Positions 8,486-64,000 of a stretch of DNA of 64,000 nt are shown here, one piece after another. The DNA is taken from contig WARS01000032.1 in NCBI GenBank assembly GCA_008933995.1, forward strand, positions 3,675,001-3,739,000. Reading direction: 5' to 3'. Below the pieces are notes generated by a model. The model worked only from the letters and a program-made list of their open reading frames with translations. It made no database searches and was not told where the DNA came from. The position numbers and the translations under genes are program-made. The stretch is from Datnioides undecimradiatus (lineage: Eukaryota > Chordata > Actinopteri > Lobotiformes > Datnioididae). Position 1 is the stretch's first letter. Every line of letters starts with the position of its first letter.

Positions 8486-11400
8486 ATGAGCAAAGCCAAC
8501 ATGGAGAACAACAAGGTGACCAATCATCAGTTCAGGGACTGATAAAACAGTAGACTTTAAATAGTTTCACACAGTTGTAACAAATAACATTTTAATATTA
8601 CCAGTTAAACCTCTCTTCCTGTTACAGCAGGTACAAAATATTCTATGCAGGTCTCACATTTATTCAGCAGCCAATTTATTTCTATTAGAGCATGATAGAA
8701 ATACATCATACAATACAGTTACCTACTAAACTGAATGCACACTGTAAAGTCCTAAACATCATACCAGGAAATGCAAATCAAAAAACATCAGCATCTTATT
8801 AAAAGATCTTTGCACATACTTTACAGGATAAGCAGGAAATATGTTCATCTGTCCCTTTAAGCATGGCTCACCCCTGCTGTCGATATGTGTGTGTGTGTCC
8901 TCAGCAGCCAGTGAAGGAGGTGCTCCCCCTGCCTCGCCACCCTTCTCCACTTCCTGTGACCTCTTCCTCTCTGACCCCTGCTGCCTCCTCAAAGAAACAC
9001 ACCCCGGGCTCTATCCAGCATGTACAGGTGGCCTCCTCAGGTGATTAACAAAGACCACGTGTCTGCATTTAATTATGTAAATTAACATATTTCTCATGAA
9101 TGTGACTTACTATTTACTGATGGCAAACATAAATGCCACTAAAAGTAAACTAAAACCAACCCAAACATTACAAAAACATATATTGACATATAACTGGTAC
9201 TTTTTGCTTTTAAAAAAAATAAATAATTTTTTAAACTTGTTTGACTTGACTTGTTTTTCCTTACAGTGGTGACATCTTTCAACCACTTGAAGCCTCCAGA
9301 GAGGGATCTCACTCTAATGTCCCACATGAAGTCTGTTAAGTCTCTGAGGCACGCAGGCTTCACTGCGGTCTTCACTGGACAAACAGTGAGTGAGCTAGCA
9401 CTGCTATAGACATAAATATGAACCTGGTATATAGGCGCAAAAAAATAACATAAAAGACTAATAATGGCTAATATTGTTTTCAGGATAAATGGAAAATAAA
9501 ATGATTAAAAAGGTGTAGCTGTAGGTAGGTGTGTATAGAAAGTGGGCTGCTTGTGGATATGTTATATGCATAAACAGGCTCCATGCACACCATTTGTCAA
9601 ATTGACTTGTAAAGATTGTTTAGCTATCATTGTTTTAGGGAGGGGTGAAGCAAATTATTAATTAAGCCTCTGATCATTTTGCGGCTGAGTGGAGCTGTGC
9701 TAGGAACGCTGTGAGGTCGCGAAATGACAACGCATGTGTGGATGGACTATGGGAGTTTAGCGCCTGCATTAATATACATTTAGTGTCCATACACAACATA
9801 TGAAGAGCATTAGAAAATACACCTTTGCTATGTTTTTATTATATTTGTGATGATTTATGATACCAATCTTATTCTTTCAAATCTGGGTCCAGAATTTAGC
9901 AGAAGCAATCTGATTATCTGATTAACTGACAGAAGCTTGACAGTGAGGAGTTGTTGGAGGAGGTACCTATTGTCGATGTGATCCTGGCTGACATTGACTC
10001 CCTGGTGCCCACTCATGATGAAGCTGGCCGCCCCATAGCTGAGTGGAAACGACAGGTGATGGTGCGACAGCTGCAGGTCAGGCTGCAGGATGAGGAGGAA
10101 CAGAGGAGACAGGTGCTCATCTGTGCTATTGTGTTGCATGTGGTAGGTGTGAGTCTGCAGTGCAATATGTAAGTGCAAGACAGTGTGCAGGCCCAGGGGG
10201 AAAGACCGTATTCAAAGTTGCTGATCTTGAAGGAATAATTTCACAAAGAAAAAACTCTGATGCTGGCAAAGATATGAACACAGGCAAAATTTATTTGCAC
10301 AACAAAATGACATGTTAAGTACAAGATGCACTAACTTTCCACAAAAAGATATTACTCAAACCCAAAGTATGAAAAAAACACAAAGGAGGGAAGAGAGCAC
10401 TTGAGTCTGCATGCAAACACTTTTGCACAATAGGATGAAATGAGAAACGTGAGGAAAAAAAAGGCATTTTAGCCCAATCAGAAGAATACAGTAATTTGAT
10501 ATTTTAGGAAATACATTTTATTTGTTTTCTTGCCAAAAATGAGATATCACTCTTGATTATGTCTGCTCAGTTTGAAGCTTGGTTTAAATTGCCATTTAAC
10601 AGGAGTCATTGCTGGTTATGTACAGGACTATTTTTTGGCTTTGTGCGGTCATCTGCAACCTTATGATAACAACAAAACTCCAGGAAGTCAGTTGCCCAAA
10701 CAAGAAATAGTCCAACACAAAACCACCTGTAGTGCTGCACTGTGTCATCTCATCCAACACTTGTCTTATTTCCCCAAATTATTCCTTTAAAAAAAAAAAA
10801 ATCTTCTCATGATTATGTACTTAAATCTTGTCCCTCGAATAGGACATGACTAATGGCTTCACACCAGTGGATGGCTGGAAGTACTCACAAACCCACAACG
10901 CAGTCTTGGGCCCCTTTGGTGAGCTCCTAACAGAGGATGACCTGGTGTACCTACAGCAGCAGATTGAGACTGTTTCATTGCAGAAGCGATGCCAGGCTTA
11001 TGAAGTGGAGCTGACCAGGCTGACTGAGGAGCTGAGGTCAATTTTACCCGATCCAATTGTAAACATCTCCCTCAACAGAGAGGTCCTCCAGCAGATGGAC
11101 GCAGAGGGGGAAATGCAACTGACGTTGCCAGTGTGGTGCAGTCGTGTCTCAGAGATTGTGAAGAGCATGTCACTGCTGGTGGCTAATCTGACCCAAACCA
11201 CAGAAGATAGTGGTGAGAGGAGTACAGTGAAAGACATGATGGAGGAGATGAAAGGTTTGCAGGGGGTAAGAGATAACTTAGTCCAGGGATTGGTGCAACA
11301 GGGCCAAGGGACACTGGCAGCACATGGGGAGACCTCTAGTGGATGCAGGATTCCTCATATTGGAATGGCATCAGCTTTCAGCCATCGTCTGGAGACCAAC

Positions 11401-12450
11401 AGTTACAGCAGAGCACGGAGGGAAAGGGTAGCGAGGGAGATCCAGCAGTCTGGGGTGTCTGTCCGAGATCTCAGATCCAACTTTGAAGGTCAGATTGGTG
11501 GGATTTATCCATTTGCTGGGGTTGTGAAAGGAGGCCAGGTAGTGTTTGGAGCTTCGAGAGTAGAGAACCAAAATGCCAACACAGGCCTTGACCATGAGAT
11601 GAGCAACTGTGATCCTCCTAAAACACTTATACCAGTGATGGAGACGACCAGCTTAAGAAAAGAGCGAATAGTGGTGCTTTTCCTGAGCCACTGGAAGAAA
11701 TCTGCATATGCTATTTCAGTGAGAGCAGCAAGGCAGAGACAGGGACAGGAAGCGGTGTCAGGTAGAGTGATAGGAGCATTGCCCCCACAGAAAATCACCT
11801 CCATGTTTCAATTCTGCCAACGACGAGGTGCTGTAGACAGGATGCTAAACTCCTGGAGGAATAAACTAGAAGTCAAAGATGTGCAAACGCTGTGTTTATC
11901 CTCCTCGAAATCCTCACAAAATCCACCACAGCGAGAAACCTACTCACCGGAGCAATTCTTGCCAGATGTGGATGGTGTCGCAGTGACCCATGATAGCCTG
12001 ACCCTCGACCTCTTCATGCTGGGATACTTTCACATTTTAGAGCAGGAGCTGTCGCCTGACGAGAGGAAGATGAGGCACCTCCTCTGCTTTGAAGTCTTCG
12101 ACCATGTTGGCAGTTTTCCCTGGGAGACTGTAAGGGACTTCCACAAGGCTGTTTTGCAGGAGATCCGGGCTGGGAGGCGTCAGTGGAGCGACGGCTTCGA
12201 AGACATCAAAGTTCGCTTCTTTGGGGATGCAAGACCATGTCGTTGTCCGTCACCATCGCCATCATCATCTTTGTTGTTGTCAGATTCCAGATTAGTTCCC
12301 AAAGTTATAGTTCAAACCGCCACTCCGGATGAGTGCAGCAGTGATGCAGACTTCTCCCTTTTCAACAATGAAGACATTTGTAAATACATTGACCGCAGCT
12401 TTGCTTTCTGGAAAGAGAAGGAGGCAGAGCTGTTTGATTTTGAACAATAG
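8486..12450 (+). CDS. espnl: Espin-like protein (ESPNL), apparently without the ankyrin-repeat N-terminus
   Basis: Espin-like proteins are actin-binding partners of class III myosins in hair-cell stereocilia. Supported exons: 8905-9040, 9267-9385, 9933-10112 and a 1.6-kb last exon 10843-12450 (TAG), all in matching phase. They encode a proline/serine-rich stretch, a WH2-like actin-binding segment ([20 protein letters not shown], with [14 protein letters not shown]), the espin-family motif [20 protein letters not shown], and the ESPNL-type tail ([66 protein letters not shown]). A short first coding exon at 8486-8515 ([10 protein letters not shown], donor AAG|GTGACC) joins 8905 in phase 0 and would give about 690 aa, against roughly 1000 in mammals (from memory). 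That start is weak (0.35); the four downstream exons are strong. Confidence 0.82.
10498..10790. repeat. Dispersed fold-back repeat, copy 2 (in last espnl intron)
   Basis: Left end ATTTTAGGAAATACATTTTA and right end CTTATTTCCCCAAATTATT form degenerate inverted termini. The segment CAAGAAATAGTCCAACAC near 10700 matches GCCAAGAAATAGTCTAGCAC in the copy at 30395. It lies wholly in the intron before the long final espnl exon. Confidence 0.55.
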
Positions 12451-44802: not shown

Positions 44803-50568
<5,766 letters not shown>

Positions 50569-56498: not shown

Positions 56499-59400
56499 AT
56501 GTGCTCCGTTGTCGGATGTGGTTCGTGGCGTCGCAGTGCGCAACGGTTCAAGTTACCTGCAGATCCGGAGAGGAGACTGGAGTGGGTCCAGTTCTTGGGG
56601 ACAGTCAATAAACAGCGTTTTAAAGAGTCATCCTGGACTGACATTACTATCTGCAGCGAACACTTTAAAGATGACTCGTTTGAAAAGACGACACCGAGAC
56701 AGTCGGGCACGACAGTCAGACAGGTCCAGCTCACGTTAAAACCCAGTGCTGTCCCATCACTGTGTCTGCAGTCAGAGCCAGACGAGCCTCAGCCGAGCCT
56801 GCAGAGCCCAAAATGTGTGGTGGGTTTATCCTGACTTTGAGAGATGACGTTTAATTACCAAGCACTGTAAATCTGCTAAGTTAATGCACAATCATTTCCC
56901 TGTTAACAAATAGGTCACAATCAGAAGTGACAGTTGACATTTTGCTTGGCAATATAACGATAAACAAGAGATATGTGTCCATACATATGTTCCATATGTT
57001 TTGCAAATTACTGATTTATTCCCACAGAGACACACACCTGAGACTCATTTGTTGTAGAAGGAGTGATAGACAGTATGTAGTAAAAGAACATTATGATGTC
57101 GCGAGCCACTTAAAGAAGCATGTTTTAAACACACTGAGCACTGAGCAACAGAAATTTAATGTCCTGTCCGTCATGTACAGTTCAATAACTGTTAATAAGA
57201 AAAACAGAGCAGTAGTGTTCTTGCATGTTGCTTCAGATGTAGCTTGTACTTACAGGTGCATAACATGAATATAATTATTGACTAAGCTCTAAATGAGTTG
57301 CTGTGTTATCTCACTGTCCATATTTACATGCAAATATGGCCATTTACCACATATATTAATATATATTCAAAACATATGGTTCTGTAAAGTTGTTCAAACA
57401 TATCTTTAAGTGTATACAAGTGCATACGTGTCATGTTGATGTTAATTACAAGCTTTTGCTGTGTTCTGTTACTCTGTGCAGGAGACCGTGGAAACCACAG
57501 AAGTTGATAAAATGTGTGATTTCCCAACTTCCTGTTCTGAAGAATCAAGACTTACTTCACTGGGTAAATCAAATGTCACATGTTTTTACAAATGAAGCAA
57601 AGTGTAGAGTTTTCTCTCATATGCCTAAAACTTAATTTGTAGCTGCCCAAGGAAGCCCAAGCTCATCTGTGTATGGCCAGATGCATCCAAAAAATGTGAA
57701 TATTGATTTAATCAGAGAAAAGTAAGTTGTTGTTTTTTGTTTTTTTGTTTGTTTGGTTTTTTTTTTTACAAATTTGTGCATAACATTTTAGTTTACTCTT
57801 GCTGCTTTTTACATCAAGTTGGTATATTGATATTTCATTTTTATTGATTTTTAGAGCTGCGCTTCTACAGATGAAAGGGAAGTATGTTGTAAACGAAAAA
57901 CTCCTCCTCCAGCTGTTTAGCTGCAAGTGTCCCTCATGTGGCTGTAAACTCCAGATGGAGAAGGTCACCTATGGGGTGCTTGTCATCTTAAACCAACATT
58001 GTCTCCAGTGTGAGTACAGATACCAGTGGAAAAGCCAAGTCAATGCCAGCATCCCAACTGCTGACAATCATCACCTAAAAGGAAGAACTCCAAAGACCCA
58101 ACAGGTAGAACCTTTTATAGGGTATTGCAGAGTCTGTCATGTACAATCCTGATGGTCACATTGGGATTTTTTTCTCACATACTGAAATTTTGAATTTTGC
58201 GCTGCTTTTGTGTTATGTTGCAATGATTACTGTGTTTAGTTTGATTTTGTGTGTTTTACTGTGTCCTCTGTTTACTGCTTATGGTTTTTCTCTTGGTAAA
58301 TACAGTTACTAACTGTTGTAGTAACTGCTGTGCAGACTTAAACGGTAATTATATCCATATCCACTTTTGCCAATATATTATAGGAAGCCTCCACGCATGC
58401 CACCCAAAGCAGCCTCACAGCAGTCCCTGAGATTGTTGCTGTTATTGAGGAGGAGAGCGATCCCATGGCTGAAACAGAGGAATCAAGTGATGGTGACATG
58501 GATTCAGACGAAGATTGGAAACCAGTGAACGATTTTTTGCTGGCAAGAGTTCTTCAAAAGCAAACTGATCACAAAATCTTAAATGAAGAGGAAGGAGATG
58601 ATGATTATCCTCCACTTGCACCCAAACACAGTCAGCTCTGCACAGAGTGTGGTATTTTTTTCAATAAACGCAGGCCTCACACATGTGAACATAAAAGCAA
58701 ACCCTATTCTTGTAATATATGTGGAAAAAGATGTGTTACAGAAGTCGCTCTAAATTCTCACAACAGAGTTCACAATGAAAACTACGAGCATCGGTGCAAA
58801 TTCTGTCACATTACATTCAAAACAAAGGCTGACAAACACACACATGAACAGACCCACATCACTGAAGGAAAACCCTATAGATGTCCCGACTGTTCAGAGA
58901 CGTTTGCTACAAATAAGGAACGCAGAATCCACCTGGAGGACCACAGAGGTCCCCGACAGTTGAAATGTAACATATGTGGGATTGAATTTCGCTCACCACC
59001 GTATCTCCAGAGACACTTAGCTGTGCACACAGGAGTGAAGCCATATAAGTGTTCAGTATGCCAACGTGGCTTCAACCAGGCGGGCCACCTGAAATCCCAC
59101 ATGCGTCTGCACACAGGAGAGAGGCCTTACAAGTGTCAGCATTGTGACAAATGCTTCAATCACAATGTGAGCCTGAAGTGTCACGTCCAGCGTGAACACT
59201 CATCCACTTGTGGACATGAACAGAGAAAGGACACAATAAGCAATAGGGAAAGTAACACCAATAATGCTGACAGGAATGGGAACACGAGAGGTGCTGATTC
59301 AGGGCTTGACAATGTAGAGGAAGAACAGGACACAGAAGAGGAGCAACAGAGGGTCAGACCTAACAAAAAAAGGAGAAGCACAGGTCGACCCAGAGGAAGG

Positions 59401-59745
59401 CCAAAGAGCTATGAGTCAGGCAACTTAGTTGTGGCAGTTCAAGTTGAAGGCCAGTATTCAAACAGGAAGACTGGAAAACCACAGGCCCAGAAATCAAAGA
59501 GAGCTCAGTGCAGCGGTGAAGAAAGTGAGGATGAGCTGAGTGACAGAGACTCATCCCTTGAGTCAGCCGAGGAAGAGGAGAAAAGCAAGAGGGTGACAAA
59601 GAACCCAGCGAGATCAAGGGGGAGACAAAGAAATAGAGATAGTGACTCAGACTTTGAGCCAGAAGATGGAAAGAAAAGGAGGTACAACAGTGGTAAAAGT
59701 TTAGGGAAGCGCAGGGGAAGACCAAGAAAAACTCTAGTGGTGTGA
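56499..59745 (+). CDS. THAP domain plus C2H2 zinc-finger protein, copy 1
   Basis: Probable DNA-binding protein of the nucleus; no name is assigned. Exons: 56499-56819, 57482-57563, 57643-57721, 57855-58104, 58384-59745 (TGA); phases agree; 697 aa. Residues 1-90 form a THAP domain: CSVVGC, LEWVQFL, CSEHF and SAVPSL give the C2CH ligands and invariant W, F and P. Exon 4 (about 161-244) encodes KGKYVVNE and a CPSCG...CLQCEY pair, a zinc-ribbon-like module. After an acidic stretch, residues 329-520 hold a degenerate first finger (CTECGIFF) and six C2H2 fingers, with TGVKPYKC and TGERPYKC linkers. The basic tail has AT-hook-like GRPRGRPK and KRRGRPRK. ATG 56499 has purine at -3 and starts the THAP fold at once. 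The exon 1 donor (GTG|GTGGGT) is mediocre. AATAAA follows at 59772. Confidence 0.88.
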
Positions 59746-61214
59746 AGATCTTGAAATGAACGGAGTGAAACAATAAATTGATCAACTGTGGGAAGAAAGA
59801 AGACATCTAAAGCAGGCATTCACACAGGACTGATTTCCAAGAAAATTGCCTGCTTGACAAAACATGTACACCTAGGCCAGGATCTATATCAAATTGCATT
59901 GCCCTTTACTGTACTTAGAAACTGGGGCAATACTTTTGAATCCTATTACCGATTTGTATGTACAATGTATGCAAATTTGGATAAAGTATGTTAAATGGGG
60001 TCGATGTTAAGTGCCTGTGTTCCTTTCTTTTGCCCAATACTTTACTCTTTATATTATTGGAAAAGATAAAGATAACTGATCAGTAAATTGTCTGAAAGTT
60101 ATTTACACATTCTGCTGAGAGGAGAGGTACATTTATTTCTTCTGCCCATCAAACAGCTCATCTTCTTGTATGGTGCATGTGTGGATCTTAACAGTTTTGT
60201 GGCAACAGTATTGAAAAAACGTTCATTTTCTAGGCCAGTGAGCTAGTAAATGACATGGAAAGTGAAGCCATGTAGTAGGCAGATAGGAAAAATGTCTCCA
60301 TAGTGATATTTGGATATTATTCTGCCCAAAGCTGAAATGAGTTAATTTAATTTTTTTAAAGCCCATTTTCTCACTCTCCTGTTACGTCATACAGATAGGT
60401 CTACTTTAATTAAACACAGTTATAGTTTTGAGATACTTGCATTTCACCTGATTATTTCCATTTCAGGGTCAAATATTGTTAGTTCACTAAATTAACTGAA
60501 CACCCACAGTTGCCACTTATTTTCCACTGATTCAGATTAATGCAAAATACAATTGATATTCACCAATAATCAACAATCATGATTATTAATAAGATTTATA
60601 ATAAGACTTTAGGATTTTTACTTGTACCTGAGTTATTCTAGAGTGTGGTATTGTGTGGTGCCCAGTAAACTCTTTCCCAAACTGAAACTTAATGGTGAGC
60701 CACTGGCCAAACCAAAATCTTTTTGTGTTGCGTTGTTAAGATACAACCGATACCAGACTCTCAAGTCCTATTAAATTGACTGACTCCCTTCACAGTGTCA
60801 GTCTGCCCGCTGTTGAGATCATGAAAAATAAACAAAAGTAGTGATCCTCCATATTTAAAGAGCATTTTTACCTCACAGGAGATAAAACTAAAAAAACTGC
60901 AACAGCGACCTAAATAATAAGTCCGAAGACTGGACAGGTTTGGTATAGGTTTTAGTTTTTTTATTTAATTTTCTCAGTGTTTTCAACGTTTGACTTTATA
61001 GCCGGGATACGCCTGTTCTCAAACCACGCGAACCCATCTACGAAGCCCCGCCCACCTATTCACCGCTGGAGTGACACTAACAGCTAGCTGTTAGCTCGTG
61101 TGTGTTTGGGATACAGGAATAGGAGTGGACACAAAGCTGCATTCTCCAGTGCCTGTGCACGTCTAACGCCGTCCGCTCACTTTTAAAGCTGGAGGGAACA
61201 GGCTCAAACCCGGG
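59746..61214. other. Spacer between the two THAP-C2H2 genes
   Basis: An AATAAA at 59772-59777, 27 bp after the stop, could end copy 1. The remainder is AT-rich without exons. A locally more CpG-containing stretch at 61010-61210 is presumably the promoter of copy 2. Confidence 0.5.
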
Positions 61215-64000
61215 ATGTGCTCCGTTGTCGGATGTGATTCGTGGCGTCGCCGTGCGCAGCGGTTCAAGTTACCTGCGAATCCTGAGGAGAGACTGGAGTG
61301 GGTCCAGTTCCTGTTTGAAGTCAATGGGCAACGACTCAAAGAATCGTCCTGGACCGATATCACCATGTGCAGTGAACACTTTACTGATGACTGCTTTGAA
61401 AGAGTGAGTCAGAGTGGCGCGGTCCAGCTGAAGTCCAGTGCTGTCCCGTCACTGTGCGTCAAGTCAGAGTCAGAGGAACCTGAGCCCTCTCAGGTGAGCT
61501 CCAGATATGTGGCCGCGTTCATTCACACTCTAACAAACTTTTTCATTGACAAAGACACTTCAAACACATATTAACTGCTTGGGTGACAACTGAATCAACA
61601 AATAACTGATTCATTTTCTCAGGAACACAGTAAGAGTCATAAAAGCAGTGCTCTATGCGATATTTAGAGCACAGTATCTAAAAGTGATTCACACCTAAAG
61701 ATTTTTAATGTCCTAACTAAAATGTTGCTTGTACCTAAGTGTCTAACGGGCCTTGTTTGAAATAGCTATACAGTACTGCAGCGTAATGAGAACTTGCTGT
61801 AAAAATCAACAGATCATAGTATTTGTTTTGTTTTTGTGTTACTTTGCGCAGGAGCCTGTGAAACCCACAGGAAATGCTTCTCGGTGTACACTCGGAACAC
61901 ATGATAGTCCATCTTCCTGTTCTGAAGAATCAGGATTAACTTCAACAGGTAAGTAACTTGACATTGGTATAAGTTAATAACAGTGGAGTGGGTCTTCACA
62001 CAAATGTTTTCTTTTCATCTGAATAATAAACTTTAAATTTAACTTGCAGATGCCTGTGAAAGTCCAGTGCCAAGTGATACGTCAGATGCTTTCCTATCTG
62101 ATTATAGTCAGATGGTACAAAGAATTGTTAATATTGATATCATCAGGGAAAAGTAAGTTCCTCTTTTCTAACAGTTCTGTTAGACAACTTTTTAAAACCA
62201 GCATCTCACATTTTTTAGTTTGAATCATTTTCTAGAGCTGCACTTCTACAGATGAAAGGAAAGTATGTTGTGAATGAAAGCTGCCTCCTCCAGCTGTTCC
62301 GCCACAAGTGTCCGTCATGTGGCTTCAAACTTCAGATGGAGAAGGTCACCTATGGAGTGCTCATCGTCTTGAAGCAGAAGTGCCTTCAGTGTGAGTACAG
62401 ATATCAATGGAAAAGCCAAGTCAACGCTAGAGTCCCTGCAGCTAAAGATCAACACTTGACAGGACGCATGGGATTATCTCCAGAGACCCGGCAGGTTAGA
62501 ATGTATAGTCAGACCTACCACAACTCATCTAATGCTATCTTAAAGGTTTAGTCACAATGACTTTAAACTAAGAATTTTACATAATCTACACTATGTATCT
62601 ATCTATCTATCTATCTATTATTACTATTATTATTATTATTATTGTTGTTGTTTTTTGTAGCCTTTAGGTTTGTGCTGGTGTTGGTAAAGCTGATTAATTG
62701 ATTGGTTGATGCAGAGAAAAATTATCTGCAGCTATTTGGATAATTGAATAATTTTGGTCATTTATCAAGCAAAAATAGTGAAACATCTTGCAACTTTTCT
62801 ACTTCTGGGAACAGTAAAACATGTTATTGTGTTCTCTTTGCAGCTGTGCTTTACAGTTCATAGACCAAATGAATTATCAGTTCATTGAATAAATGATCTG
62901 CAGATTAATTGATAATGAAAATAACTGTCAGTTGCAGCATATGATTTAATGTTGAATATATAATTTAACCCAGACCTATTTATGTCATCATATCTTTCAC
63001 AGCCAGTGTCAACAGGTGACAAATGCAGCAGCACCACTGGTGTCTCTAAGATTGTTGATATTATCAAAGAGGAGATTGGTTCCCAGGATGAAACAGAAGA
63101 ATCAGGCGATGAGGGCAACATGGATTCAGATGAGGATTGGAATAACGGGATTCATAGTGACGAATCTGATGAGGAGAGTGATGATGAAAGTGATGATTAT
63201 CCTCCACTTGCACCCAAACACAGTCAGCTCTGTGCAGAGTGTGGGATGTTTTTCAATAAACGCAGGCCTCACATATGTGAACACAAACTCAGACCCTATT
63301 CCTGCAATATTTGTGGTAAGAGATGTGTCAGTGAGGTCGCTCTAAATTCTCACAACAGAGTTCACAATGAAAACTACGAGCATCGGTGCAAATTCTGCCA
63401 CATTGCGTTCAAAACAAAGGCTGACAAACACACACATGAACAGACCCACATCACTGAAGGAAAACCCTATAGATGTCCCGACTGTTCAGAGACGTTTGCT
63501 ACAAATAAGGAACGCAGAATCCACCTGGAGGACCACAGAGGTCCCCGACAGTTGAAATGTAACATATGTGGGATTGAATTTAACAGACCTCGTTCTCTCC
63601 AGAGACACTTAGCTGTGCACACAGGAGTGAAGCCATATAAGTGTTCAGTATGCCAACGTGGCTTCAACCAGGCAAGCCACCTGAAATCCCACATGCGTCT
63701 GCACACAGGAGAGAGGCCTTACAAGTGTCAGCATTGTGACAAATGCTTCAATCACAATGTGAGCCTGAAGTGTCACGTCCAGCGTGAGCATTCATCCAAT
63801 GCCGGACATGAACAGACGATGTACAATGACAATGTAGAAGAAAAGGCAAGGAGGGTACAGAAGGAGAGAACAAATATACCAAAAACTAAAAAGAGGGCCA
63901 CAGGCAGACCCCTAGGAAGGCCGAAGAGAAACGCAGCAGGAATTCAAAGCCAGTGTTCAAACACTAAGACTGCCAAAGTAAAGGAGGGTAAGTTAAAGAA
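61215..64000 (+). CDS. THAP domain plus C2H2 zinc-finger protein, copy 2 (runs off window end)
   Basis: Tandem paralogue of the preceding gene with the same five-exon plan: 61215-61493, 61852-61948, 62050-62152, 62236-62494, and 63003 onward, still open at 64000; phases agree. The THAP domain (CSVVGC, LEWVQFL, CSEHF, SAVPSL) and the CPSCGFKLQMEKVTYGVL zinc-ribbon module are clearly homologous but diverged from copy 1. The acidic linker differs (HSDESDEESDDESDDYPP). The finger array is nearly identical to copy 1 except for one recognition helix. GRPLGRPKR begins the AT-hook-like tail. The missing 3' end prevents judging whether the tail is intact. Confidence 0.86.
62596..62652. repeat. (TCTA)n-(TTA)n-(TTG)n compound microsatellite in copy 2 intron 4
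   Basis: Six TATC-type units run into TTA triplets and then TTG triplets within the last intron of the second THAP-C2H2 gene. The equivalent intron of copy 1 lacks it. Confidence 0.85.

Follow-up and report, generated by a model that had tools for sequence, protein, structure and literature searches.

A probable unconverted island at one recognition helix of two tandem THAP-C2H2 zinc-finger genes

In the window analysed here, a 64,000-nucleotide stretch of Datnioides undecimradiatus DNA, two neighbouring genes carry C2H2 zinc-finger arrays that are nearly identical over 380 bp, apart mainly from a block of 15 bp in the recognition helix of the fourth finger. We consider this block to be probably a retained unconverted island within a recent gene-conversion tract, as judged from one assembly. 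The pattern is best read as an old patch on a new background, which inverts the order of events proposed in a first-pass annotation of the same DNA.

Three tandem THAP-C2H2 genes

The locus holds two copies of the gene within the window, the second running past its end, and a third copy that was found by reading on downstream. Their exons are arranged as follows.

56499..56834, + strand: copy 1 exon 1, THAP domain (Pfam THAP PF05485, E=1.1e-13); starts MCSVVGC, frame open up to the stop at 56834
57853..58068, + strand: copy 1 exon 2, Cys-rich module (CPSC...CLQC); 72 compared codons in the three-copy alignment, within the open frame 57784-58152
58384..59745, + strand: copy 1 last exon (open frame); acidic stretch, C2H2 fingers 1-6 (58711-59199) and basic tail
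61215..61574, + strand: copy 2 exon 1, THAP domain (Pfam THAP, E=1.4e-10); frame open up to the stop at 61574
62234..62449, + strand: copy 2 exon 2, Cys-rich module; 72 compared codons
62964..64000, + strand: copy 2 last exon (open frame), which goes on to 64292, past the window end
Beyond the window, in continued window coordinates: copy 3, with its THAP exon at 65440, exon 2 at 66860 and finger exon at 67971-69458

All three copies encode six fingers of the form C-x2-C-x12-H-x3/4-H, and the two that were scanned match Pfam zf-C2H2 (PF00096) with E=3.7e-21 for copy 1 and 3.1e-22 for copy 2. The THAP domain (PF05485) is identified by Pfam in copies 1 and 2 and by alignment in copy 3. From the repeated exon order we infer that the THAP, Cys-rich and finger exons are spliced together. 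Among the matches listed (the best 60 of 241), solved relatives of the array are headed by ZNF568, Aart, CTCF and PRDM9, which are general C2H2 arrays and point to nothing specific. The Cys-rich module of exon 2 (KCPSCG...CLQCEY.YQWKSQ) is common to all three copies, and the Pfam scan assigned it no family at threshold, with sub-threshold matches only.

In intron 2, alignment scores lie inside the shuffle range for all three copy pairs, and intron 1 yields short matches only, the best spanning 73 columns between copies 1 and 2 and another 44 bp. Since the introns are mostly unalignable, the sequences indicate that the three tandem genes stem from old duplications.

Upstream of copy 1, the open frame 48593-49189 (+) matches Pfam Angiomotin_C (1.7e-46). 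Ten of the 14 open frames were scanned, and nine of these ten had no Pfam match; the frame at 10843-12450, of 535 aa, had none at E 0.001.

The near-identical tract and the finger-4 patch

The comparison of copies 1 and 2 centres on the following features of the finger exon.

58816..59195, + strand: near-identical tract, copy 1 side; 380 bp, of which 370 equal copy 2, with 8 of the 10 differences in finger 4
63408..63787, + strand: near-identical tract, copy 2 side; offset 4592 from copy 1
58990..59004, + strand: probable unconverted island, copy 1; finger-4 helix positions -2 to 3, RSPPY, 8/15 differences
63582..63596, + strand: probable unconverted island, copy 2; finger-4 helix positions -2 to 3, NRPRS
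59082..59083, + strand: second small difference, in the helix of finger 5, with a silent change at position 1 and Gly/Ser at position 2; the copy 2 bases equal the copy 3 bases
58806..58815, + strand: three left-edge differences, in finger 2 outside the recognition helix; possible further unconverted remnant

Copy 1 reads CGCTCACCACCGTAT (RSPPY) at 58990-59004 and copy 2 reads AACAGACCTCGTTCT (NRPRS) at 63582-63596, in each case directly 5' of LQRH. Reading the two copies base by base confirmed the annotated 8 differences in 15 bases, with no change of length. In C2H2 helix numbering, position -1 is the residue seven ahead of the first His. The first-pass annotation had applied this numbering correctly in stating that contact positions -1, 2 and 3 are changed; position -2 changes too, the change at position 1 (Pro) is silent, and positions 4 (Leu) and 6 (Arg) are the same in both copies. 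Six of the eight differences are replacements, and the two silent ones are CCA/CCT and the third base of CCG/CGT. Fingers 2-6 otherwise form nearly the same scaffold in copies 1 and 2.

The near-invariant 5' flank likewise shows no difference, but it is 174 bp long (58816-58989) rather than the 171 bp first given, the nearest upstream difference being at 58815. In the 191 bp on the 3' side (59005-59195) the sole differences are those at 59082-59083, giving QAGH versus QASH, as had been described. The patch (8/15) thus stands apart from the rest of the tract (2/363; Fisher p = 3e-11), and it ranks top among the 208 five-codon windows of 58588-59223. The broader statement that all visible change falls on contact residues is accurate within the near-identical stretch but fails directly outside it, where 58588-58815 and 59196-59223 carry 30 differences, many of them silent.

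Silent divergence between copies 1 and 2 drops sharply and locally in the finger exon. With segment borders that were picked after the differences were seen, it amounts to 0.69 in the THAP exon, 0.71 in exon 2, 0.78 in the acidic stretch and 0.59 in 58588-58743, then 0.16 in the bordering 72 bp (58744-58815), 0.00 in 58816-58989 (34.7 sites) and 0.027 in 59005-59193, before returning to 0.82 in 59194-59223 and 1.39 in the loosely aligned tail. For the tract as a whole outside the helix-4 patch (58816-59193) the value is 0.014, and within the patch it is 0.77 (2 differences in 4.2 sites). The longest run of agreement between copies 1 and 2 covers 56 of 189 polymorphic sites, a length reached in 0 of 20000 permutations. 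Relationships among the copies are also discordant: in exons 1 and 2 copies 2 and 3 are closest (0.175 and 0.194), and in the fingers copies 1 and 2 are. Such a local drop in silent divergence, a significant permutation test and discordant copy relationships together are the mark of interlocus gene conversion, which appears to have recently homogenised copies 1 and 2 over about 380 bp of the finger exon.

Intrinsic constraint on silent sites was considered as a source of the near-identity and can be ruled out. In 58816-58989, 56 of 174 bases separate each of copies 1 and 2 from copy 3; in 59005-59193 the counts are 26 of 189 for copy 1 and 24 of 189 for copy 2. Because copy 3 diverges freely there, the silent sites of the tract are not frozen. 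The earlier argument that conserved silent sites betray selection on the contact residues does not survive this result, since gene conversion explains the missing silent differences. More generally, gene conversion can mimic selection on silent sites. The converted stretch may extend further left, because copies 1 and 2 also agree at all 62 bases of 58744-58805; the stretch 58806-58815, with its three differences, would then be another remnant.

The patch itself is most likely older than the homogenisation of its flanks, because its silent differences, only two in number, fit the flank rate and not the tract rate. Two silent differences in about four sites have a probability of 0.54 at the flank rate, against 0.001 at the tract rate and 0.023 at the upper bound of that rate. 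Divergence on contact positions -1, 2 and 3 that appears to predate conversion (0.77 vs 0.014 around, on two silent differences) is what is found in islands of the opsin type discussed below. The idea of a duplicated factor gaining a new target is accordingly upheld as to the difference in contact residues at the sequence level, but the order looks reversed, with recent flanks (about 0.01 vs 0.59-0.82) and an old patch (0.77). The limits of the island are inexact, because the flank carries only about one difference per seven bases; the unconverted stretch need not be exactly 15 bases, and 30 additional clean unconverted bases on one side would be improbable (P = 0.013).

Selection, chance and other origins of the island

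The sequence of events that we favour can be put as follows. Old duplications would have produced three tandem THAP-C2H2 genes, and recent interlocus gene conversion would have homogenised about 380 bp of the finger exon of copies 1 and 2 while sparing positions -2 to 3 of the finger-4 helix, an island of about 15 bp, and perhaps a further 2 bp in the helix of finger 5. The two copies differ at DNA-contact residues and hence probably in target, and would read different DNA at the finger-4 subsite. Converted alleles that erased the helix difference may have been lost, the two factors needing different targets, and the eight-mismatch block itself perhaps helped to stop strand exchange. That selection rejected conversions erasing helix 4, so that the tandem factors keep different targets while the rest of the array is recycled, is a reading we hold tentatively, at somewhat below even chances. 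If true, it would make these genes a paralogue pair whose scaffold and target-reading residues run on separate clocks.

Helix 4 is variable across the family. The copy 3 helix reads KDVHH, so that three copies carry three different helices. Pairwise comparison gives 8, 12 and 10 differences in 15 bases, a level equalled or exceeded in 1, 2 and 5 of 208 windows, and comparison with the rest of the tract gives p = 3e-11, 7e-6 and 4e-4. The helices of fingers 5 and 6 are almost unchanged across the copies. The island sits on the most diverged (or tied) stretch in two of the three pairings. Between copies 1 and 2 the patch has dN 1.0 and dS 0.77 (Fisher p = 1.0 on rounded site counts), and because dN about equals dS, the 15 patch bases alone do not demonstrate positive selection. 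Between copies 2 and 3 the values over five codons are dN 4.0 and dS 0.51, and the comparison of copies 1 and 3 is saturated. The replacement rate of the patch exceeds that of the 5' flank (p = 2e-4). Diversifying selection before conversion and relaxed constraint both fit the patch and are both possible.

Measured against copy 3, the altered bases at helices 4 and 5 are mostly those of copy 1 (5 sites to 1), and in 58588-58815 they are mostly those of copy 2 (14 to 5). The contrast in direction is significant when both helices are counted (Fisher p = 0.023) and not when helix 4 is taken by itself (p = 0.10). Of the flanks, this test used the 5' one; the 3' flank leans the same way as the 5' flank, at 3 to 1. 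With few sites and a distant reference, these counts give a hint that copy 1 shifted to a new target.

The location of the island in a helix is by itself a weak argument for selection. Of 364 random placements of a 15-bp island, 65 put at least 12 of its bases inside one of the helices; for a 2-bp island, 100 of 377 placements fall in a helix. Moreover, retained islands are visible only where the copies already differed, which is a bias towards variable helices. A neutral explanation, in which conversion was patchy and left the island behind by chance, within one discontinuous tract or between two adjacent ones, or in which the dense mismatches blocked heteroduplex formation, shares the retained island with the selective one and differs solely in its cause. 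We regard it as possible, with a probability of about one in three put in round terms. It draws support from the placement counts, from the differences at 58806-58815, which lie at the tract edge outside any helix, and from a review in which discontinuous tracts are reported to occur at low frequency (PMC3924818); most interlocus tract estimates given there run from 50 to several hundred bp. Set against it, and not decisive, are the coincidence of the island with contact residues and with the most diverged (or tied) stretch in two of three pairings, and the position of the second island, 59082-59083, which is also in a helix.

Two further explanations place the change after homogenisation. Had selection altered the helix of copy 1 (or copy 2) by one point change after another, the predominance of replacements (6/8) would be expected, as would the direction of change, copy 1 being altered at helices 4 and 5 (5 to 1) yet conservative in 58588-58815 (5 to 14). 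The rate speaks against this: 8 changes in 15 bp vs 2 in 363 bases has a Poisson P of 5e-14, and selection could raise the replacements but two silent changes in about four sites would still be needed (P = 0.001, or 0.023 at the upper bound). Point-by-point change after homogenisation is thus disfavoured by both the rate and the silent-site counts, and we rate it very unlikely. Import of the patch from another paralogue, or its creation by a one-step templated complex mutation, would account for the eight clustered changes, silent ones included, by one event. We searched the 581-Mb assembly, a single assembly, for a possible donor. The finger-exon DNA query (633 bp) returned, among the candidates scored, five matches: each of the three copies and, on two contigs, a match of 133 bp at 72%; 102-bp DNA queries round either helix returned two matches each, copies 1 and 2, again among the candidates scored. 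A 209-aa protein query (best 150 of 1075 candidates) recovered the copies at 100, 93 and 67% identity and a next match at 37%. Neither the DNA searches nor the protein search within those best 150 of 1075 candidates gave a fourth close family member in this assembly.

Copies 1-3 are therefore the only close family members among the candidates scored, and the third paralogue carries KDVHH and neither RSPPY nor NRPRS. We looked for a local template or inverted copy on either strand of 79.8 kb, made up of the window and the 15.8 kb that follow it downstream, and counted matches that were 10 bases or longer and shared 9 or more bases with the patch. The copy 1 patch had no exact match of at least 10 bases elsewhere in the 79.8 kb; in the same 79.8 kb the best match was 12 bases for the copy 2 patch, a length reached by 4 of 50 shuffles, and 11 bases for the copy 3 patch, reached by 13 of 50. 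No likely local source was thus present in this interval. The bases directly round the patch are unchanged, and agreement at those would be unexpected if the donor came from outside the family. The first-pass suggestion of a patch copied from another paralogue accordingly finds no support, and we consider an imported or templated patch unlikely.

Near-identical tandem exons are a known difficulty in assembly. Consensus building or polishing could have made the arrays falsely identical or misplaced a patch, and allelic contigs seem to have been kept elsewhere: two contigs (C471 and C472) carry 99.2% identical stretches (L015 vs L016) at similar positions, and for some regions both alleles may be present in the assembly. 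The locus of the three genes, for its part, was found on one contig only, each copy turning up at a single place in the DNA searches. The finger frames are uninterrupted, no indel accompanies the patch difference, both versions of the patch make a sound C2H2 helix, and the diverged flanks and introns should let long reads separate the copies. An artefact is to us the least probable of these explanations.

Known divergence islands and minor features of the locus

We compared the locus with published systems on the basis of titles, abstract openings and cited passages. The closest likeness is to the red and green opsin genes, for which a divergence peak at exon 5 under gene conversion is described (Teshima and Innan 2008, via the review PMC3924837). 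There, too, neighbouring duplicates are homogenised except for a short stretch of specificity-setting residues; unlike here, the effect of two residues is known and human and macaque were compared, whereas our case consists of one genome, sequence only and an island of about 15 bp (PMC3924837). The escape of helix 4 fits selection for two targets, in the manner of the opsin genes (PMC3924837); it also fits mismatch-blocked or discontinuous conversion (PMC3924818). In the copepod Tigriopus, divergence islands of the GOT1 paralogues adjoin converted regions (PMC3728101). Those islands, too, lie in otherwise converted paralogues, with selection suggested only, but the gene is of another kind and several populations were sampled, compared with a DNA-binding helix in one genome here (PMC3728101).

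Among zinc-finger genes, the PRDM9 array resembles the present pair in combining homogenisation with divergence at DNA-contacting helix positions (PMC2779102). It differs in that the fingers are homogenised within the array of one gene and vary in number, whereas here homogenisation would act between two genes with the same finger number, and in that PRDM9 has KRAB and methyltransferase parts where our genes have a neighbouring THAP exon (PMC2779102). Lineage-specific poly-zinc-finger families share with our case C2H2 paralogues, short gene conversions and a selection signal in the family, but converted genes were removed there before the selection test, and the cited passages do not take up an interplay of the present kind (PMC2604467). 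We found no plain precedent for this pattern between tandem zinc-finger paralogues in the titles, abstract openings and cited passages surveyed. On that footing, the locus would be a small, good example of a known phenomenon, the island of divergence between gene-converted paralogues, and its setting in one C2H2 recognition helix would have no plain precedent in the surveyed literature.

As a natural experiment, the pair offers nearly the same finger scaffold with one helix different, so that a difference in target could be assigned to few residues. If selection is the true cause, this would be an opsin-like case in a DNA-binding factor, and the spared residues should predict the changed DNA motif.

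Two conserved stretches lie in intron 1 ahead of exon 2 of copies 1 and 2: 57665-57736 and 62096-62167 are 76% alike, and 57524-57567 and 61909-61952 are 84% alike. Both stretches may be elements that act in regulation or splicing. The first two exons of copies 2 and 3 are much alike. The THAP exons (61156-61481 vs 65382-65709) are 92% identical, with a silent divergence of 0.175, and the second exons (62225-62514 vs 66849-67140) are 87% identical, with 0.194; despite this, the two copies are strongly diverged in the finger exon and mostly unalignable in the introns. Copy 2 has the look of a mosaic, perhaps produced by separate exon-sized conversions with copy 3.
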